DNA of 26,410 bases, from IMG/VR virus record IMGVR_UViG_3300032288_000997, positions 1 through 26,410 of that record, one strand, 5' to 3'. The notes below the pieces were generated by a model that was not told the origin of the DNA, did no database searches, and saw only the letters and a list, made by a program, of their open reading frames with translations. This document shows, piece after piece, positions 3,232 through 11,228 of the stretch. Position 1 is the stretch's first letter, and every line of letters starts with the position of its first letter. The position numbers were made by a program, and so were the translations under genes. The DNA is from a virus.

Positions 3232-4446
3232 TTAGTTGAATGGAACGACCACACCGGATGGCGGGGTCCATGATTTGTTGCAGGTCACAAGCCACAGCGT
3301 AGGCATTGCGATCTCCCATGTCGGGCTACTCTCCACATAGCCGTCGGTGAACACAATTACGCATTCAGCCTTTACTGACTTCTTGTTTATGTAGTCAGCC
3401 ACGCACCCAACGCGAGTGCCTCCACCTCCTTTGGGTTTGAGCAGGTTTGCGATATTACTGTAGTCTTCGGGTTTGAACAACTGTTCGCCGTGAACCTTAG
3501 TGTCCCACCACAATACGCGGACAGCTTCAGGCTGCACAAGCTCACATATCTGAGCCAACTCGGACGCAGCCTCGTTAAGCTGATTCTGATCTATCGAACC
3601 CGATGTGTCGATAGCAAACACCACCTCGCCTACAGTCTCATCTTCTAATGTTGGCATGTAGATGTCACTGGGCAACAGACGCCTGTTGAACTTGCGCCAC
3701 GTATACTCGTCACGACCTTTGGTGCTTGATGTAACAAACTCACGCAACACCTCACGCCAGTCAACCTGCGGCTCAAACATCTCAGTGATACTACGCGGCA
3801 ACTCGATCCCCAAGCGCCCAGCCAACAGCGCACCTTCTCTCAGCGCACGGTCAACCTGCTCGTCCAACTCTCGTAGATCATCTGGGTCAAGGTCACCTAC
3901 ATCATGCTCGTCAAACTTGTAGTCACCATTGCTTGACGAATCACCTGAGCCACCGCCTTCACCTTCATCTTTATTGCCCCCACCGCCGCCACCTTCGTTG
4001 CCTTCCATCTCCTTCTTGAGGATACGGTAAACCTCACGCATGTTCATGTTGTCAAACCGCTTGTCGTAGCAACCGCCTTCGGGCAGTTTGGCTAGATCGG
4101 GTTCGTTCATGTTTGTGATGATGGAATTGACAACGTAGTCAGCCGCCATGTTCGCAAGCTTCGGGTTCTCCTTGAACAGGTCGAGACTGTGAGACATATG
4201 TCTCAGGGCAATGTGCAGGTTCTCGTGCAAGACCAGACCAGCCACCTCCGCATCTGTCTTGCACACAGCGTTCAGGAACGCTCTGCCATACTTCTTGTCC
4301 ACACCGTTGGTGTAAGCAGTGACTGACGGACTATCTATCACCTCCGTCTTGCCCATCATCATCACGCCAGAATACAGCGCAGTCTTGGGGTGCTTCATCA
4401 GCGCAATGTGCGCCTTCTTCACCCGTTGTTCTTCAGTCAGTTTCAT
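3232..4446 (-). CDS. DUF2201-type metallopeptidase/VWA protein, partner of MoxR ATPase
   Basis: Two-part protein of about 404 residues. The N-terminal half has a zinc-peptidase motif HENLH (about residues 75-79) followed by a helix AADYVVNS that often supplies the third ligand. After a glycine/glutamate-rich linker (about 150-175) comes a VWA domain with the metal-ion-dependent adhesion site DTSGS (281-285), a GGGGT loop (about 345) and FTDG (about 369). Such proteins usually work with MoxR AAA+ ATPases, as in CobS/CobT-like pairs. A true cobalt chelatase is unlikely here. Two tandem ATGs exist at 4449 and 4446. The second is better spaced from GGAGG and overlaps the stop of the 29-residue gene as TGATG. 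Confidence 0.85.
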   Translation of the reverse strand: MKLTEEQRVKKAHIALMKHPKTALYSGVMMMGKTEVIDSPSVTAYTNGVDKKYGRAFLNAVCKTDAEVAGLVLHENLHIALRHMSHSLDLFKENPKLANMAADYVVNSIITNMNEPDLAKLPEGGCYDKRFDNMNMREVYRILKKEMEGNEGGGGGGNKDEGEGGGSGDSSSNGDYKFDEHDVGDLDPDDLRELDEQVDRALREGALLAGRLGIELPRSITEMFEPQVDWREVLREFVTSSTKGRDEYTWRKFNRRLLPSDIYMPTLEDETVGEVVFAIDTSGSIDQNQLNEAASELAQICELVQPEAVRVLWWDTKVHGEQLFKPEDYSNIANLLKPKGGGGTRVGCVADYINKKSVKAECVIVFTDGYVESSPTWEIAMPTLWLVTCNKSWTPPSGVVVPFN

Positions 4447-4535
4447 CATGGCCTCCAGTAAAAAACATCTAACAACAAAACAAGGACAGCGATGAACAGC
4501 ACTACCGTCACTACCTTTTCAGACAGAGGAGTCAT
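4446..4535 (-). CDS. 29-residue single-pass membrane peptide
   Basis: Tiny gene between the MoxR and VWA genes. It has an excellent Shine-Dalgarno sequence (GGAGGTCAAAG before ATG). The product is almost a bare transmembrane helix: a short MTPLSEK head, about 17 hydrophobic residues from V8 to L22, then DVFYWRP. It overlaps the upstream 59-residue gene by 17 bases, and its TGA overlaps the tandem ATGs of the VWA gene. Function unknown. It could anchor or regulate the MoxR/VWA complex at the membrane (inference), or act mainly as a coupling leader peptide. Confidence 0.6.
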   Translation of the reverse strand: MTPLSEKVVTVVLFIAVLVLLLDVFYWRP

Positions 4536-4698
4536 CTTTGACCTCCGCTACATCACAAACGTACCCCTCTGCGGTGTTGTTGCACCGTGAGGGTTCAAAC
4601 CAATCAAGCATCGTTGCTTCGGCCTCGGCTTGAGTCTCAGCTTCAATCTCGATCTCTTGGGTGTAGGTCATCACCACAGTACCTTTCCAGCGTTTCAT
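4519..4698 (-). CDS. small acidic protein (59 aa), resembles DpnD/PcfM-type proteins
   Basis: Reads MKRWKGTVVMTYTQEIEIE, then an AETQAEAEATML helix and a C-terminal EGYVCDVAEVKDDSSV strand. The strand, 'eAet..eAea' helix, strand pattern is like small DpnD/PcfM-like phage proteins and like the gene at 7864-8046 in this window. The start lies eight bases after the stop of the MoxR gene with GAGG before it. Function unknown. Its position inside the MoxR/VWA block is notable. Confidence 0.65.
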   Translation of the reverse strand: MKRWKGTVVMTYTQEIEIEAETQAEAEATMLDWFEPSRCNNTAEGYVCDVAEVKDDSSV

Positions 4699-4705
4699 AC
4701 ACGCC

Positions 4706-5791
4706 TCACATCAGCATGTGGTTTTCAATCGCCCAGTTCTTGATCTGCTCGTTGTACCGAGCGATCCGGGGCTTTGTCCGCATCATCATGGTGAAGAACA
4801 AGCTCTGCACTTCGGAGTGTGGGATGCGCTTGACGAACTCCATATAGGATGTCAGACCACCCTGATCCTCAATGTAGTCAGTCGCCTCAAACATCATCAT
4901 GATCAGCGCTGAAATATCTGACGGAACCTTCGCGGTGTCTGGCGATTTGATGATCTCAGCGTAGGGCACTAGCTTGCTTTCCAGATTGATAAACGCAGCC
5001 ATTGATTTAGCGGCGGCCTCACCGATAGTGCCAGCCAGCGCCACGGCCAATGTGTTCTCGCTGAACTTGTTCCGGTTCTCCACGATGACAGACGCCTTAG
5101 TGAGTGAGCGAGGCGAGGCGAATGACTTAGCCGACCCACTAGGCTTGAAGATGTACGGGTTGTCGCTCTGATCCGGGTCGGTGTATGACTTCATAACCCG
5201 AGGGTTCATCGCCACCCAAGCACGGATGGAACGCGCCACGCGAGGCTTGCCATCGACCACCCCACCAGCCCAAGCATTCCACTCATCTGCCGATGGCTTA
5301 CGCATATCGGCCAGACAGACGCGGTTAGCTGCGTGAGCCAGCATGTTGTCACCTACACCGTCCGATGCGTTGTTACTTGTGCCAAACAAGATAGACCCTT
5401 CGGGCAGCGGAACATCACCAACCGTTCGCTCCAGCATCATGCGAGTGAAGATCACCTGCAACAGCTTGGGTGCTTTCATAAACTCATCGAGCATGATCAC
5501 CTTCTTCTTGCCATTGCCCAGCTTGAAGAGTGAAGACACGTAGTACTCAAGAGACCTGCTCTCGTGGTTGGGGATGGACGCGGCAATGTCCATCATGTCC
5601 TTGACAGGACAGTCCACGTAGATGAAGTCGTACTCATCCGTGCCCATCTCAGCCTCCAGCATCTTGAGGATGCTTGACTTGCCGACACCCGGCTCGGAGA
5701 CGATGATCGGCGTGATCTCATGGCCGACAGTCTTGATTAGGTCTTTGGCCTCGTTGATGGAGACGCGCAGTTTGAAATTGATTTGAGACAT
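4706..5791 (-). CDS. MoxR-type AAA+ ATPase (361 aa)
   Basis: Clear P-loop ATPase. From the chosen start, Walker A is SEPGVGKSS (about residues 32-40), Walker B is VIMLDEF (98-104), sensor 1 is in LFGTSNN (N140) and a likely arginine finger is in HAANRV (R157). This layout is typical of MoxR/CobS-like ATPases, chaperone-like enzymes that remodel a VWA-containing partner; that partner is probably the protein encoded just downstream. The ATG at 5791 (MSQINFKL) is preferred over one at 5848, which would overlap the upstream gene; AAAGGGAAACC precedes it. Confidence 0.88.
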   Translation of the reverse strand: MSQINFKLRVSINEAKDLIKTVGHEITPIIVSEPGVGKSSILKMLEAEMGTDEYDFIYVDCPVKDMMDIAASIPNHESRSLEYYVSSLFKLGNGKKKVIMLDEFMKAPKLLQVIFTRMMLERTVGDVPLPEGSILFGTSNNASDGVGDNMLAHAANRVCLADMRKPSADEWNAWAGGVVDGKPRVARSIRAWVAMNPRVMKSYTDPDQSDNPYIFKPSGSAKSFASPRSLTKASVIVENRNKFSENTLAVALAGTIGEAAAKSMAAFINLESKLVPYAEIIKSPDTAKVPSDISALIMMMFEATDYIEDQGGLTSYMEFVKRIPHSEVQSLFFTMMMRTKPRIARYNEQIKNWAIENHMLM

Positions 5792-5816
5792 GGTTTCCCT
5801 TTCTGTGAATAATGAA

Positions 5817-6035
5817 TCAGCACACGGTGACAGTCTTATCGGACGCAACCTCTTTGATGACCAGCTTGTCGTCCTTGTCGATCATCAGAGTCACCTCCTT
5901 CTTCGCTACCCCTACCAACGATCTATGGAACATTGCGGCAATCACAAACGTACTCTTGGCCCGCTTGCGCTCGACATTCCACAAGAACAGCATCACGCCC
6001 AGCGCGATCAGCAACACAACTTCTAAGTCACTCAT
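5817..6035 (-). CDS. small membrane-anchored protein (72 aa)
   Basis: The N-terminus has one clear transmembrane helix (about residues 4-20, LEVVLLIALGVMLFLW). It is followed by a basic stretch (ERKRAKS) that would keep the rest in the cytoplasm, and a soluble tail ending SDKTVTVC. The start forms an ATGA overlap with the DUF3150-like gene, and GAGGAG precedes it. It sits between that gene and the MoxR gene, so it may tether the complex to the inner membrane (inference). Confidence 0.7.
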   Translation of the reverse strand: MSDLEVVLLIALGVMLFLWNVERKRAKSTFVIAAMFHRSLVGVAKKEVTLMIDKDDKLVIKEVASDKTVTVC

Positions 6036-6949: not shown

Positions 6950-7155
6950 GTTGTCCTCTTGGGGTTAAGTTGAGATAAAACGGTCGGATCAGTCACAAGG
7001 ATGTAGTTTGATTTGTTTAGCGGGGCTACAGTCCATGAGCGGCGCTTGAGTTGTGCGTCAGTCTCCCCGCACTCTTTGCACAGCACATAGCCAGCCTCGC
7101 GGCGGGCAGGGTCGTACTCCTCCTTGCACAGGTCGCACTCGCAGGGGGCAGTCAT
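6946..7155 (-). CDS. small zinc-ribbon-like protein (69 aa)
   Basis: Cysteines at residues 5, 7, 10, 26 and 29 form CDLC and CKEC knuckles, which would hold one zinc ion. The rest (KRRSWTVAPLNKSNYILVTD) has no known motif. The ATG at 7155 shares one base with the stop of the preceding gene (TGATG). A TTG at 7158 could also serve. No strong Shine-Dalgarno sequence is seen, so translation is probably coupled to the preceding gene. Confidence 0.65.
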   Translation of the reverse strand: MTAPCECDLCKEEYDPARREAGYVLCKECGETDAQLKRRSWTVAPLNKSNYILVTDPTVLSQLNPKRTT

Positions 7156-7394
7156 CAAAAGTCCAGACGGTGAGTCGTCAGGGGTAACGTGACGGTGACG
7201 TAGGTATGCGCCTCGTCCATCGCCTCATCCGCTTGCTTGCACAGGTGCGTTTCGTAGTCGGCGGTCTGTCTGTCCACATAGACGGCAACGGGTTTGCCAT
7301 CGCAGACCATCACATGAACCACCGGGGGTCTTACCTGCGGGGCCACCGGCTCAACCCGCATTAGTTCCTCAAAGTATTTCTTACTCTGTCCCAT
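7155..7394 (-). CDS. hypothetical protein (79 aa), first gene of the long left operon
   Basis: Begins MGQSKKYFEELMRVEPVAP and has a small beta-rich core (VVHVMVCDGKPVAVYVD). No family is recognised. The ATG at 7394 is preferred because AAAGGGAG lies seven to eight bases upstream. An in-frame ATG at 7421 (MTFNERECN) sits right after the conserved leader and could be a short upstream-initiated form. This is the first gene after the promoter at 7477-7505 and heads the tightly packed operon running to the left edge. Confidence 0.65.
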   Translation of the reverse strand: MGQSKKYFEELMRVEPVAPQVRPPVVHVMVCDGKPVAVYVDRQTADYETHLCKQADEAMDEAHTYVTVTLPLTTHRLDF

Positions 7395-7417: not shown

Positions 7418-7443
7418 TCATCTATCCCTGACACGTTGAATAG
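7418..7443. repeat. conserved intergenic repeat, copy 1
   Basis: One of four copies of a 24-27 base element, consensus TCATCCAACCCTGACACG followed by TTAAATAG (plus strand). This copy reads CTATCCC in place of CCAACCC and lies in the leader between the stem-loop and the first open frame. On the minus strand the TCAGGG part precedes an ATG. Confidence 0.7.
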
Positions 7444-7470
7444 CTGGGCGCTGAAGTCGCCTGCCCAACT
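7442..7470 (-). promoter_or_regulatory. 5' leader stem-loop at the start of the left operon
   Basis: An 8-base inverted repeat (7442-7449 with 7463-7470; AGTTGGGC pairs with GCCCAGCT, including one G-U) encloses a 13-base loop. It begins at the predicted transcript start. A paralogous hairpin with the same stem and loop lengths is at 8728-8756, with a compensatory change in the last pair. It could be an RNA stabiliser or an operator overlapping +1. Confidence 0.6.
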
Positions 7471-7476
7471 GCTTCT

Positions 7477-7505
7477 ATTGTAGCATAACTTGACAGTTAA
7501 GTCCA
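7477..7505 (-). promoter_or_regulatory. sigma70 promoter for the left operon
   Basis: On the minus strand the -10 box is TACAAT (7482-7477) preceded by TGC (extended -10). A 17-base spacer separates it from a weak -35 TGGACT (7505-7500). The predicted start is near 7470. It would drive the genes from 7394 leftward. Confidence 0.7.
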
Positions 7506-7523
7506 CTTGTTCGATTGACTTTT

Positions 7524-7880
7524 TTAATTAGTGTCTATGAGGTCATAAGGCACATCCACTTCATCCCCCAGCTTGCTCGCAACAAAACAGCGCATAGCTG
7601 CGATCAGGGGTGTGGGGCCATCATGCGGGATGTGTTGATTTCTGTACATGGCTTCCCACAAGGCAGGGCTTTGCGGTACAAGCTCAATCATCTCCCGCTC
7701 AATGAGCGGGCCACCGTGTGCCCAGTCGGTTGTGTACCGTCGCTCTACCGAGCAACCGCCACGTTGAAACACTCTCCCATCAAGTTCATATTCGCAGTCT
7801 CCATGCACGAAGCTAACACCCTCCGCAATTGACACCGCCCAATCAAGGGCCGCACCTGTCAGTTCACTTGTCTTGATCAT
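7524..7880 (-). CDS. ninX: NinX-like protein (DUF2591, 118 aa)
   Basis: The opening MIKTSELTGAALDWAVSIAE and the C-terminal GPTPLIAAMRCFVASKLGDE followed by VDVP are hallmarks of the NinX/DUF2591 family, found in the nin regions of lambdoid and other proteobacterial phages. The biochemical role of NinX is not established. A start at 7946 is possible, but the ATG at 7880 matches the family N-terminus and has GGAGAAAG before it. It overlaps the previous gene by 17 bases and is last in its small operon. Confidence 0.85.
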   Translation of the reverse strand: MIKTSELTGAALDWAVSIAEGVSFVHGDCEYELDGRVFQRGGCSVERRYTTDWAHGGPLIEREMIELVPQSPALWEAMYRNQHIPHDGPTPLIAAMRCFVASKLGDEVDVPYDLIDTN

Positions 7881-8046
7881 TTGCTTTCTCCTCAACGGAT
7901 TCAATGTCCCATGCGGCGTCCTCGTGCTTGTAGTCGCCATGCTCAATCACCTGCCACGCCATGTCCTCGGCTTGGTCGGCGTCCTCTGCCTCAACGGTCA
8001 GCACGATGTAACTTGTGCGGCGCAGTTCAACTTCAAAAGTTTTCAT
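7864..8046 (-). CDS. small DpnD/PcfM-like protein (60 aa)
   Basis: Reads MKTFEVELRRTSYIVLTVEA followed by the helix EDADQAEDMAWQVI and a C-terminal AAWDIESVEE strand. This strand-helix-strand build resembles DpnD/PcfM-like small phage proteins and the 59-residue protein at 4519-4698. The ATG at 8046 is chosen over 8079 because it gives an ATGA overlap and has a near-perfect GGAGGT signal. Confidence 0.7.
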   Translation of the reverse strand: MKTFEVELRRTSYIVLTVEAEDADQAEDMAWQVIEHGDYKHEDAAWDIESVEEKANDQDK

Positions 8047-8297
8047 TTCAATACCTCCGGTTTGTTTTGTTTCAGCCATGTCAATGTGAACTCATGCAGT
8101 CGGGTGATGTTCGTTGTCTCCGTGTAGTCATCGTTCCACTCAAGGTCGCCTATATGTTTATACCCATCCTCACGCTCATTTTTCTCACCCGTGAAGATGA
8201 ATACCTTGTTGCTGTCCGACCATGCGACATGGAAGTCAAGCACTTTGACCTCGATGGCGTTTTCGCCCTCCATCTCCCAAGGCTCTAGATAACGCAT
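8043..8297 (-). CDS. hypothetical protein (84 aa)
   Basis: Acidic, tryptophan-rich protein starting MRYLEPWEMEGENAIEVKVL, with alternating strands (VLDFHVAW, KVFIFTG) suggesting a small beta sheet and an ending helix (RLHEFTLTWLKQN). No family is recognised. AAAGGGATAGG precedes the ATG, and the stop overlaps the next start by four bases. Confidence 0.7.
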   Translation of the reverse strand: MRYLEPWEMEGENAIEVKVLDFHVAWSDSNKVFIFTGEKNEREDGYKHIGDLEWNDDYTETTNITRLHEFTLTWLKQNKPEVLK

Positions 8298-8311
8298 AAC
8301 CTATCCCTTTC

Positions 8312-8686
8312 TTACAAGATGTTGTATCCCTTGAGCCAGCGCCGCGCGTCCTTACCGGGACGGACGATGGTCAATCCGCTGAACTGTGCGTCAGGGGTGT
8401 CTAACCCGCTGTCGTCTTCAAACTCTAGTGAGCCGTCAATGTCGAAGTCAGGGTCGACTGTGTTTGCGTTAAAGCATCGGGCCTCGCTGAAGTCCGCAAG
8501 CTCCTGATCCGTTGCCAGCGTGTTGATGCAGTTGTCTTGCGGTTCCAAGTTGGCAATCGGCGCCGTCCCGGTCACAACGCGCCGTGCCTTGGCAAGCTCA
8601 CGCCTGTAGGTGGGCGAAATGACGAAATGGATTGCGGTGGGGGGCAATGTGTTCCCGATGGGTTTTAGCAGTAGCTTTTGCTTCAT
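8312..8686 (-). CDS. hypothetical protein (124 aa), first gene of the ninX operon
   Basis: Begins MKQKLLLKPIGNTLPPTAIH. The middle is acidic (DPDFDIDGSLEFEDDSGLD) and probably flexible, and the end is basic (GKDARRWLKGYNIL). No family is recognised. The ATG at 8686 has GAGGAAACG upstream. An in-frame ATG at 8707 (MTFEETI) directly follows the conserved leader, as at the 7421/7394 pair. It is the first gene after the promoter at 8763-8791. Confidence 0.65.
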   Translation of the reverse strand: MKQKLLLKPIGNTLPPTAIHFVISPTYRRELAKARRVVTGTAPIANLEPQDNCINTLATDQELADFSEARCFNANTVDPDFDIDGSLEFEDDSGLDTPDAQFSGLTIVRPGKDARRWLKGYNIL

Positions 8687-8703
8687 GATCGTTTCCTCAA
8701 AAG

Positions 8704-8729
8704 TCATCCAACCCTGACATCTAAATTAG
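8704..8729. repeat. conserved intergenic repeat, copy 2
   Basis: Reads TCATCCAACCCTGACA then the diverged TCTAAATTAG. It sits between the leader stem-loop and the ATG at 8707, in the same relative position as copy 1. Confidence 0.65.
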
Positions 8730-8756
8730 CTGGGAAGCAGGGTTATATTCCCAACT
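8728..8756 (-). promoter_or_regulatory. 5' leader stem-loop of the ninX operon
   Basis: An 8-base inverted repeat (8728-8735 with 8749-8756; AGTTGGGA pairs with TCCCAGCT, one G-U) encloses a 13-base loop. It begins at the predicted +1. Relative to the copy at 7442-7470 the last stem pair changes from C-G to A-U, so pairing is kept while the loop sequence differs. Confidence 0.6.
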
Positions 8757-8762
8757 GATTCC

Positions 8763-8791
8763 ATTATACATTTATTAGAAGGTTAAGTCTC
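8763..8791 (-). promoter_or_regulatory. sigma70 promoter for the ninX operon
   Basis: A perfect TATAAT -10 (8768-8763, minus strand) is followed by GGAATCAGTTGGG. The -35 at 17 bases is the poor GAGACT (8791-8786). GACTTAAC in this region is shared with the promoter at 7477-7505. The predicted start is near 8756. Confidence 0.7.
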
Positions 8792-8794
8792 GTC

Positions 8795-8803
8795 TGTGGA
8801 TAA
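8795..8803 (-). promoter_or_regulatory. DnaA box
   Basis: TGTGGATAA on the plus strand is the exact complement of TTATCCACA, the high-affinity DnaA box. It lies just upstream of the ninX-operon promoter. Confidence 0.55.
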
Positions 8804-8871
8804 CTTTCTCAACTAGGGCGTCAGGGTAGGGTGAAGGCTAGTGTAAAGTTTGGGTTGGAACTGGAACGAAA

Positions 8872-8892
8872 AATTGGAATCGCTGGAATCGG
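8872..8892 (+). repeat. 21-base direct repeat, left copy
   Basis: The element AATTGGAATCGCTGGAATCG, plus one further G, is identical to 9377-9397. Each copy holds two TGGAATCG units nine bases apart, like an iteron pair. Confidence 0.75.
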
Positions 8893-8928
8893 AAATGTGC
8901 TGAAGAAGGTATTCAAAAACAATAGAAA

Positions 8929-8955
8929 TACTCTACTAGTAGTAGTAGTAGAGTA
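8929..8955. repeat. short perfect inverted repeat
   Basis: TACTCTACTA (8929-8938) and TAGTAGAGTA (8946-8955) are perfect complements around GTAGTAG, itself part of a TAG trinucleotide run. It could form a cruciform or hairpin within the candidate origin. Confidence 0.7.
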
Positions 8956-8959
8956 CTAT

Positions 8960-9130
8960 AAATTCCAGAATTCCAAGGATTCCAAGCTAAAAAAAGGACA
9001 AAGCTGGTTGAGTGCTTATGTGCTGTGTTTGGGGGTGCTTGATTTTGCACCTCGCGTTCCTTCCTTGCCTTCTCAAAAGATGTGCTCGGCAAACCCTTTG
9101 TCCTTTTGAAAAGCTGGAATTCTGGAATTT
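8960..9130. repeat. long interrupted inverted repeat
   Basis: The arm 8960-8975 (AAATTCCAGAATTCCA) is exactly complementary to 9115-9130, and 8992-9003 (AAAAGGACAAAG) to 9096-9107. An AGCT also pairs between these blocks. The arms flank a 92-base loop. This suggests a long stem in RNA or single-stranded DNA. Confidence 0.75.
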
Positions 9131-9137
9131 CCACAGG

Positions 9138-9146
9138 TTATCCACA
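9138..9146 (+). promoter_or_regulatory. DnaA box
   Basis: A perfect TTATCCACA. A related TTTCCACAGG sits about ten bases earlier, giving a tandem TTTCCACAGG / TTATCCACAGG pair. Confidence 0.55.
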
Positions 9147-9376
9147 GGCTAAGTCCTTGATTTTAAACAGGAAAACGACGATTCCAGAAAAAATTCCAGT
9201 TTGGAACAAACTTTACAAACTTGGAATTTTTGTAGTACTTTTGTTTATTTCGACTTGGAATCGGTTGGAATCAAAAACCCGAAAAGTTCTTCTACGCAAT
9301 CACGAAAAAGAACTTGGCGCTTTTCGATTCCAACTATTTCAACTCAGTTCCAGCTTGATTGGAACTTGGAATTGGC

Positions 9377-9397
9377 AATTGGAATCGCTGGAATCGG
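9377..9397 (+). repeat. 21-base direct repeat, right copy
   Basis: Identical over 21 bases to 8872-8892. Together the two copies bracket the TGGAAT-rich segment. Confidence 0.75.
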
Positions 9398-9407
9398 GAA
9401 GAGGAAA

Positions 9408-9434
9408 TCATCCAACCCTGACACGCTAAATAAG
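9408..9434. repeat. conserved intergenic repeat, copy 3
   Basis: Reads TCATCCAACCCTGACACG then CTAAATAAG. Unlike the other copies it has no obvious -10 box or gene close by on its left; it borders the TGGAAT-rich region. Confidence 0.7.
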
Positions 9435-9463
9435 AGTCTAGCCATGCGGGGCCATGCGTCTGC

Positions 9464-9490
9464 GCTCACGCCCACGCCCACGCCCACGCG
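9464..9490. repeat. CACGCC hexamer tandem repeat
   Basis: Three to four copies of CACGCC in a row, followed by CACGCGG. The paralogous intergenic cassette near 10390 has only CACGCTCACGCGG, so this copy appears to have expanded. Confidence 0.65.
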
Positions 9491-9539
9491 GTCATACACG
9501 CACGCGCCGACAAATAACTGGTATCAAAAATCGCGGACG

Positions 9540-9570
9540 AAAAAAAAACCCGGAGCCTTTCGGCTCCGGG
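9540..9570 (-). terminator. Rho-independent terminator after the 229-residue gene
   Basis: On the minus strand, CCCGGAGCC pairs with GGCTCCGGG across a GAAA tetraloop and is followed by about nine T residues. It lies about 20 bases after the stop codon at 9589. Confidence 0.9.
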
Positions 9571-9588
9571 CTAATCATCACTCAGTCA

Positions 9589-10278
9589 TCAAGCGTTATA
9601 TGCTTTCCAGAAAGCGGCTCTTGCTGTGCGGAAGCGGACTGGATCGGCGGTCTCATCACCCTTATTTTGTTTTACTTTTACTGACTTGTCCCACGCATCG
9701 AATACCTTATTTGCAGATTCGATAAAGTTTAACGTGGTGCGAGTCTTTTTCTCGCCGGACTGCTCACGCAGGATATCGCGCACCGCTGACTCCAAATCCT
9801 TATTTTTATTGGACTCATACCCGCGCCACTTCGTGCGCCACTCTTTGACCACCTTATGCTGTTCCGGGTCATCCTTCGCAAGCCTGCCAAATTCCTGCTG
9901 AGATATCCCTGATGCAACATACACGCTGACAATCTGGACTTCCCGCTTTTCTTTTCGTGCGGCCTCGAATTTTTCCGCATGGTCAGCATCCAGACTGTTT
10001 GTCAGTTTTAGCCATGCCCCTGTATCTTTGCTGACAATGTAGTAATCCTGCCCCTGCTTTTCGTGAAAGCGTAGTTTGTAACCCTCGGCCAAATCATTGC
10101 GAATCTCTTTATGAGAATTAACGACAGGCTCTGAGACAAATTCAGGATACTGAAGCATATACATTGCGATACTACGGATTGACTCTCCGATTCGGGCTAG
10201 TTTATAACCCGCATCTTTGAGGCTAGTAGGCTCGGAAAATTCAATAGCCGAGAGAGGCTTTTCTGTCTTTACTTTCAT
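9589..10278 (-). CDS. hypothetical phage protein (229 aa) next to the candidate origin
   Basis: Soluble, charged protein that I do not recognise. The N-terminal third holds a helix around IGESIRSIAMYMLQYPEF. The middle has a strand pair YKLRFHEKQGQDYYIVSKDT, and the C-terminal half is rich in lysine, arginine and helices (KEWRTKWRGYESNKNKD). The basic C-terminus and the position next to the iteron-like region would suit a DNA-binding replication protein, but no known motif supports this. GGAG lies ten bases before the ATG. It has its own promoter and terminator. Confidence 0.75.
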   Translation of the reverse strand: MKVKTEKPLSAIEFSEPTSLKDAGYKLARIGESIRSIAMYMLQYPEFVSEPVVNSHKEIRNDLAEGYKLRFHEKQGQDYYIVSKDTGAWLKLTNSLDADHAEKFEAARKEKREVQIVSVYVASGISQQEFGRLAKDDPEQHKVVKEWRTKWRGYESNKNKDLESAVRDILREQSGEKKTRTTLNFIESANKVFDAWDKSVKVKQNKGDETADPVRFRTARAAFWKAYNA

Positions 10279-10307
10279 TTTTCATTACTCCAATGAAGTT
10301 TTACAAA

Positions 10308-10335
10308 ATACGCCAAACGGGATTGTCTGGCGTAT
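10308..10335 (-). promoter_or_regulatory. 5' leader stem-loop before the 229-residue gene
   Basis: ATACGCCA (10308-10315) and TGGCGTAT (10328-10335) are a perfect 8-base inverted repeat around a 12-base loop. The outer edge lies within a few bases of the predicted transcript start. It may act as an operator or as a 5'-terminal RNA hairpin. Confidence 0.6.
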
Positions 10336-10339
10336 GGTT

Positions 10340-10345
10340 ATTATA
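10340..10345 (-). promoter_or_regulatory. -10 box of the promoter for the 229-residue gene
   Basis: Perfect TATAAT on the minus strand. No good -35 hexamer is found at 16-18 bases; instead the conserved CTATTTAACGTGTCAGG element occupies that region. This may mean an activator-dependent promoter. Predicted start near 10333. Confidence 0.6.
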
Positions 10346-10350
10346 TGACG

Positions 10351-10375
10351 TCATCCAATCCTGACACGTTAAATA
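10351..10375. repeat. conserved intergenic repeat, copy 4
   Basis: Reads TCATCCAATCCTGACACG then TTAAATAG. It overlaps the -35 region of the promoter at 10340-10345, whereas copies 1 and 2 lie downstream of their promoters. Confidence 0.7.
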
Positions 10376-10445
10376 GTGCGTCAGGCCACGCTCACGCGGT
10401 CAGACTCGCGCGGCCACTAATAACTGGTATCAAACCACGGGGCAC

Positions 10446-10476
10446 AAAAAAACCGGGAGCCGTGTGGCTCCCGGTT
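10446..10476 (-). terminator. Rho-independent terminator after the 72-residue gene
   Basis: Minus strand: AACCGGGAGCC pairs with GGCTCCCGGTT around a four-base loop, with a run of seven T residues that includes the last two stem bases. It starts just past the stop at 10479 and closely resembles the terminator at 9540-9570. Confidence 0.9.
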
Positions 10477-10478
10477 GG

Positions 10479-10697
10479 TCAGAAATTGTCTGCGAAGAAT
10501 TTAAGCGGGTCGTCTGCGCAAAGGAAATCAAATTTATTGAACACGCCACTTTCCCCGCTGAGAGTGTCCGTAATAGTCACCTTGTTGTCTGGCCAATATT
10601 TGACCGCCAACCCGCAACCTTTGGCTTGAAATTCTCTTTCGGCCATATATTCTTCCGTGTGCAGGCTTACATCAAGTCCTCTATCTCTAGTATTCAC
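10479..10697 (-). CDS. hypothetical protein (72 aa), GTG start
   Basis: The product starts (M)NTRDRGLDVSLHTEEYMAE and contains KVTITDTLSG and a hydrophobic end PLKFFADNF. No family is recognised. The start codon is GTG at 10697, with GAAAGGAAAG eight bases upstream. The hairpin at 10717-10735 separates it from the upstream gene and may attenuate read-through into it. Confidence 0.65.
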   Translation of the reverse strand: MNTRDRGLDVSLHTEEYMAEREFQAKGCGLAVKYWPDNKVTITDTLSGESGVFNKFDFLCADDPLKFFADNF

Positions 10698-10710
10698 GGT
10701 GCTTTCCTTT

Positions 10711-10735
10711 CAAAATGGGGGGCGCTTGGCCCCCC
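10711..10735 (-). terminator. terminator- or attenuator-like hairpin
   Basis: Minus strand: a 7-base GC-only stem (GGGGGGC with GCCCCCC) and five-base loop followed by ATTTTG. The T tract is short, so termination may be partial. Confidence 0.55.
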
Positions 10736-10747
10736 GGTTGGTTTAGA

Positions 10748-11185
10748 TTAATTGCAGACAATCATGTATTTGGGGCGCTCTACATGCTCGACACCCACTT
10801 GGACTCGCTGGCAAGCCCCGCTATCCTCATCAGCGTAAGCCCAGACATTTACCCTTGTGTCTTCCACGTTGTAGACATAATCCCGATTCAGGCATTCCGC
10901 CGTTTCCCGTGTTTCCTTGCACTCCCCCATGTTTTCGAGGGTATTCAGAAGCATGGTCAATTCCATGCTCTTGAATCCCGGCAGATTGCGCATCGTAATG
11001 TAGATGTGCCCGCCTGTAGATACATGGATGTGGTCATCGTCACGCAAACATTTAACCAGCTTGCTGACGATGCGACCCAGAGTCCTACGATTGCCCTTGA
11101 GCTTCTGTACGTCACCTTGCATCATTTTGACGTTTTGCTTTGCGTCAGCCAATGCCTTGTTCAGGATTTCAGTAGTACGTTTCAT
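10748..11185 (-). CDS. hypothetical coiled-coil protein (145 aa)
   Basis: Starts MKRTTEILNKALADAKQNVK and continues as a lysine-rich helix to about residue 45, probably a coiled coil. A beta-rich domain with HIHVSTGGHIYITMRNLP follows, and several strands lie near the end (RVNVWAYADED). No family is recognised. An in-frame ATG at 11221 is possible, but it would lie inside the predicted leader hairpin, and the ATG at 11185 has GAGGAAAC before it. It is the first leftward gene after the divergent control region. Confidence 0.7.
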   Translation of the reverse strand: MKRTTEILNKALADAKQNVKMMQGDVQKLKGNRRTLGRIVSKLVKCLRDDDHIHVSTGGHIYITMRNLPGFKSMELTMLLNTLENMGECKETRETAECLNRDYVYNVEDTRVNVWAYADEDSGACQRVQVGVEHVERPKYMIVCN

Positions 11186-11210
11186 TTTGTTTCCTCTATT
11201 GAGAGAATTG

Positions 11211-11228
11211 CCGAACAACATCGTCCGG
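11211..11228 (-). promoter_or_regulatory. 5' leader stem-loop of the first leftward gene
   Basis: CCGGAC and GTTCGG (minus strand) pair over six bases including one G-U, with a six-base loop. The stem begins one base after the predicted transcript start at about 11229, as in the other leftward leaders. Confidence 0.5.

Follow-up and report, generated by a model that had tools for sequence, protein, structure and literature searches.

Conserved hairpins at the predicted transcript starts of early promoters in an uncultured phage lineage, with a possible role in mRNA 5'-end protection

Introduction

What function is served by an inverted repeat that recurs at the predicted first base of one early phage transcript after another? 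This question is raised by a 26,410-base virus record (IMG/VR IMGVR_UViG_3300032288_000997), which was analyzed over its whole length and is referred to here as the window. The leftward genes, which are the early ones, lie left of approximately 11.2 kb, and the rightward genes include the terminase, portal, and structural genes. The closest relatives of the window are uncultured IMG/VR contigs, and the nearest named phages have a terminase identity to the window of only ~50%; the phage lineage is common, occurs in both freshwater and marine settings, and is uncultured. A preliminary description, made from the window alone, had reported a stem-loop at the predicted +1 of four leftward promoters and had offered two readings, a general stabilizer of early mRNAs or operators at +1.

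Hairpins at four leftward promoters

The promoters and hairpins of the window are as follows.

7482-7477, minus strand: site 1 promoter, TACAAT, first paired base 7 nt past the -10; gene 7155-7394 downstream
7470-7442, minus strand: site 1 hairpin, AGTTGGGCAGGCGACTTCAGCGCCCAGCT, class C, -13.7 kcal/mol
8768-8763, minus strand: site 2 promoter, TATAAT, offset 7; gene 8312-8686/8707 downstream
8756-8728, minus strand: site 2 hairpin, class C, -10.4 kcal/mol
10367-10340, minus strand: site 3 promoter, GTGTCA-16-TATAAT (-10 at 10345-10340), offset 5; gene 9589-10278 downstream
10335-10308, minus strand: site 3 hairpin, class B, 11 bp, -15.5 kcal/mol
11263-11236, minus strand: site 4 promoter, TCGTCA-16-TATAAT (-10 at 11241-11236), offset 8; gene 10748-11185 downstream
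11228-11211, minus strand: site 4 hairpin, 7 bp, 4-nt loop, -7.0 kcal/mol

All four hairpins were found where the preliminary description had placed them, 5-8 nt after the -10, and the -10 boxes are indeed three TATAAT and one TACAAT; the stems, given there as 6-8 bp, are 7-11 bp long with G-U pairs included. The base 7 nt past the -10 is an A at all four sites and is likely the start base. Sites 1 and 2 have weak -35 boxes (site 1 with TGn-TACAAT) and share the arm AGTTGGG, and the loops of the window (AATCCC, ATGT, and long loops) include no C(UUCG)G loop. Since ~30% of random positions in this GC-rich window reach -7 kcal/mol and ~20% reach -9 kcal/mol, hairpins of equal strength are frequent by chance and the four window sites alone are only suggestive. 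Once relatives are compared, the +1 hairpins are far beyond chance.

The repeated intergenic unit

Site 3 belongs to an intergenic unit, ordered as terminator, boxA, boxB palindrome, promoter, and hairpin, that recurs in dozens of IMG/VR contigs. The corresponding features of the window are listed below.

10476-10451, minus strand: intrinsic terminator before the boxA of the site 3 unit, ending the upstream transcript
10434-10407, minus strand: boxA of the unit before site 3 (TTTGATACCAGTTATTAGTGGCCGCGCG)
10375-10348, minus strand: boxB palindrome over the -35 of site 3 (TATTTAACGTGTCAGGATTGGATGACGT)
9589-10278, minus strand: 229-aa KDAGY family protein downstream of site 3, the usual gene behind boxA units
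9572-9547, minus strand: intrinsic terminator after gene 9589-10278, before the second boxA
9528-9501, minus strand: boxA of the second unit, leading into a repeat-rich, origin-like region
9432-9405, minus strand: copy of boxB in the second unit
8728-8701, minus strand: boxB in the site 2 leader, directly 3' of the hairpin
7442-7415, minus strand: boxB in the site 1 leader, directly 3' of the hairpin

BoxA is an element of ~28 nt (TTTGATACCAGTTATTTGTCNNCGCGCG; consensus TTTGATACCAGTTATTtgtc..cgcgcg) that follows each early-gene terminator, with at most three copies per genome, and is itself followed by a GC-rich spacer and then boxB. It was present in 115 IMG/VR stretches. At the second boxA unit of the window (9528-9501), no promoter or hairpin was found. 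Genomes carry one to three KDAGY paralogues, and every paralogue follows a unit of its own; the predicted structure of the protein is confident (pLDDT 94) and gave no confident fold or family match, which does not prove a new fold.

The boxB sequence, TATTTAACGTGTCAGGrTTGGATGA, contains a palindrome; in boxA units it either precedes or overlaps the -35, whereas at sites 1 and 2 it lies in the leader. Copies from one genome seem to share their half-sites, which seem to differ from one genome to the next (TTTCAC, TCGGGT, TTCCAC), a pattern that may point to a diversifying regulator; a crude test of arm likeness gave only a weak difference, 2.86 within vs. 2.42 between genomes, with many wrong palindromes picked, and carries no weight here. 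Repressor control, if any, would more likely use boxB than the repeat at +1.

Position of the hairpin across the lineage

A total of 210 non-redundant units was gathered from boxA stretches and terminase relatives; this set still includes relatives, so that counts drawn from it overstate independence, a limit answered in part by the contigs fetched later (see below). A set of 93 unit promoters was picked on the -10, the -35, and a downstream ribosome-binding site, blind to hairpins. In 65 of these 93 promoters the start of the strongest hairpin falls 5-9 nt past the -10, compared with 10-13 of 93 in four dinucleotide shuffles, and the mean best energy at the start is -9.7 kcal/mol vs. -2.3 to -2.6 kcal/mol when shuffled. 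At 7 nt past the -10, an A stands in 65 and a G in 11 of 89 cases, and the likely start base of these transcripts, judged from promoter position, is A. On the starts so predicted, 70 of 73 stems have their first base no later than +2, and in most cases zero or one 5' nucleotide is left unpaired.

The hairpins also favor the early strand, as set by the terminase orientation of the contigs. A hairpin of -7 kcal/mol or lower lies at the start of 48/82 early-strand intergenic -10 sites, a control offset giving 7/82, and a start hairpin was seen at 5/57 late-strand intergenic -10 sites. A second contig set was fetched later through another gene and has almost no sequence in common with the first. 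Its near relatives have a start hairpin in 12 of 15 cases; for its distant lineage the count is 33/117, or only ~28% of promoter-like sites, where the control offset gives 6/117 and the late strand 12/130. The hairpin is set farther back, ~13-14 nt past the assigned -10, in a small related group (L011, L023 8560, L088 5295, L126 7906). No +1 hairpins were seen in the T4 and lambda controls, where numbers are small, and no enrichment was seen in the cultured terL relatives HTVC023P and 023Pt_psg01, with few promoters each; for a third, DSL-LC04, no promoter passed the filter.

The sequence that follows the stem bears on two further readings. A start-proximal attenuator or terminator would find some encouragement in the U-rich stretch 3' of the stem at some sites (e.g., L008), whereas the 8 nt 3' of the stem contain a mean of 2.8 T and reach six T in only 6 of 73 cases, short of a terminator T-run, and genes with good ribosome-binding sites follow directly; this reading is extremely improbable. 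The hairpin could otherwise act as a leader insulator or translation aid that keeps the ribosome-binding site unstructured or standardizes the leader. In the boxA units measured, 10-44 nt separate its end from the start codon, leaving the ribosome-binding site free as such a role would have it, yet nothing in that role calls for a stem beginning exactly at +1 to +2, and the sharp position peak points instead to a role at the 5' end. The insulator reading is accordingly judged improbable.

Conservation of structure and loop classes

Two hairpin classes, A and B, can be aligned with zero or near-zero gaps; the alignment of class C hairpins is too poor for counting pairs. In class A, 91.7% of cells are paired and two-sided changes occur in 8 of 9 pairs, with a covariation score of 0.609 vs. 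0.303 when shuffled (reached in 0/500 shuffles) and a maximum of 0.181 for slid versions. In class B, which includes site 3 of the window, 99.2% of cells are paired, a percentage biased upward because members were chosen for forming this hairpin; the spread of pair types is informative, with two-sided changes in 7 of 11 pairs and a covariation score of 0.671 vs. 0.262 (0/500 shuffles). Under strand-symmetric scoring, G-U mismatches (67) exceed A-C mismatches (27), the direction expected of folding by the transcribed strand. Combined, these pairing patterns indicate that selection acts on the RNA structure and not on the DNA.

The stem sequences themselves vary freely. Among 80 stems, 63 different 5' arms occur, and at sites 1, 2, and 4 the orthologous sites, in the closest relative (L007) and others, keep a start hairpin with other stem sequences. 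Compensatory changes set L007 apart from the window at site 2 (AGTCAGGA...TCCTGACT in L007, AGTTGGGAA...TTCCCAGCT in the window), and the site 4 hairpin of L007 is TATAATtcaatTACCGGATCAATTCTGATACGGTA. The preliminary proposal that the shape is kept rather than the sequence is thereby borne out, by the covariation of two classes, the excess of G-U over A-C, and the substituted stems at orthologous sites.

The same data weigh heavily against its other suggestion, operators at +1, taken here as DNA sites bound by a dimeric regulator. Inverted repeats in this position commonly serve as operators, but the arms differ within as well as between genomes, the covariation and the G-U excess lie on the transcribed strand, and a shared palindrome, boxB, is already present and fits an operator better. 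This reading is thus very improbable.

The loops behave differently from the stems, being kept within each class: class A, whose members were selected mainly by loop, has an invariant C-G closing pair and NNGGU, class B has CA[AG]UUCGGU, and class C has GGGGAR. Conserved loops and the kept closing C-G are what would be expected if hairpin and loop were read by a phage or host protein (CsrA-like, or an early RNA-binding protein) or by RNA polymerase, as in antitermination of the HK022 put type, and early units do sit between strong terminators, where antitermination could matter. Against recognition stand the single hairpins of ~16-38 nt, unlike the two-stem put RNA of ~70 nt (PMC9378689), the existence of three unrelated loop classes, sometimes together in one genome, and the lack of any Rfam covariance-model match at the gathering score, only unrelated sub-threshold matches being returned. 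Recognition is therefore considered unlikely, if worth keeping in view. An extended version, in which each loop class of a lineage-wide code has its own phage or host reader that selectively protects or licenses early transcripts of the phage while a phage regulator binds boxB, is slightly less probable still and is offered as speculation.

Proposed protection of the 5' end

The reading preferred here, given a probability of roughly 0.6, is that the +1 hairpin is a 5'-end protector that stabilizes early mRNAs against RppH and RNase E. Both enzymes depend on a single-stranded 5' end, and bla mRNA is stabilized by a hairpin at its 5' end (PMC3997798). A leftward, early promoter would start transcription at the A approximately 7 nt past the -10, and the mRNA would open directly with a hairpin of 7-11 bp, having zero or one unpaired 5' nucleotide and the ribosome-binding site left free downstream, some 10-45 nt separating hairpin and start codon. 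Because the first transcribed base would lie within a stable stem or just one base ahead of it, RppH and RNase E would lack a usable 5' end; the hairpin may hide the 5' triphosphate from RppH and hence from 5'-end-dependent decay by RNase E, so that early phage mRNAs would be stabilized in the way that the ompA and papA mRNAs are by their 5' stem-loops. Protection fits the data best because the position is sharp, no T-run follows, the ribosome-binding site is free, and the feature is confined to early promoters. The class-conserved loops are not needed by a pure end-blocker and count against protection, as do the hairpins ~13-14 nt past the -10 in the small related group and the low share of hairpin-bearing sites in the distant lineage. 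The model assumes that the host uses RppH and RNase E; the boxA pattern was not found in GTDB contigs, and thus no host was found.

The preliminary idea of a general mRNA stabilizer consequently holds in part: the hairpins recur generally at early promoters with their structure conserved and occupy the 5' position that a blocking model needs, while the stabilization itself is a prediction from that arrangement.

Comparison with known systems

The 5'-terminal stem-loops of ompA and papA stabilize mRNA (Emory 1992; Bricker 1999, as cited in PMC3997798) and, as in the hairpins described here, are placed at the extreme 5' end with hardly any unpaired nucleotides and with pairing rather than sequence being important; on predicted starts, the stems of the phage lineage lie within ~1 nt of the 5' end. 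The known cases are single host genes, whereas the lineage has such a hairpin at nearly every early promoter, with class-conserved loops and a stabilizing effect that is presumed. Leader hairpins are also known from phages, namely CUUCGG in T4 gene 32, credited with mRNA stability, and GUUCGG in phage 7-11 (PMC8948821); class B loops are often [AG]UUCGG. Those hairpins are not stated to lie at the +1 of a promoter series, and the window loops are not UUCG.

The PeSLs of T4-type phages (Arbiol 2010; Comeau 2014; via PMC4503421), called promoter-terminator motifs in title, are likewise repeated intergenic cassettes of early promoter and stem-loop beside small variable genes, as far as the citing account describes them. 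On that description they would differ in that the +1 hairpin, without a T-run, does not look like a terminator and that boxA and boxB are other sequences; terminators do precede the boxA units. The HK022 put RNA (PMC9378689) is similar in being a structured RNA just past an early promoter (putL) and dissimilar in being a two-stem RNA that binds RNA polymerase, in place of one short stem of variable sequence; two stem-loops within ~70 nt were found neither in the window nor in its relatives. In function, the ompA/papA 5' stem-loop comes closest; among phage cases, the T4 gene 32 and phage 7-11 hairpins do; and in architecture, the PeSL cassette does.

The principle of a stabilizing 5' hairpin is known and its lineage-wide use would be new; a literature search of partial coverage returned no report of systematic +1 hairpins. 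A structure known from single mRNAs is here seemingly a standard part of the early promoter, and compensatory changes have preserved it across large distances. If the hairpins block RppH, these phages would forestall mRNA decay by the host as early as their first transcript; for T4, the involvement of RppH was marked "not yet investigated" in a 2010 review (PMC3014915). If protection is true, the lineage would also offer many naturally occurring short stabilizers of mRNA 5' ends.

Additional features of the window

Class C promoters (7505-7477, minus strand, in the window) share TTGACt-N5/6-GTCAAGTTATGn before TATAAT, TACAAT, or TATACT in many relatives, a motif consisting of an extended -10 and a possible second palindrome over the -35. 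The origin-like region at 8780-9430, which follows the second boxA unit, contains many TTCCAA/TTGGAA repeats and a DnaA-box-like TTATCCACA, and in relatives an origin-like arrangement likewise comes after the last boxA unit. Further left, at 3232-5848 on the minus strand, an ATPase gene is paired with a VWA/metallopeptidase-like (DUF2201) gene in an arrangement that recalls MoxR-VWA pairs.
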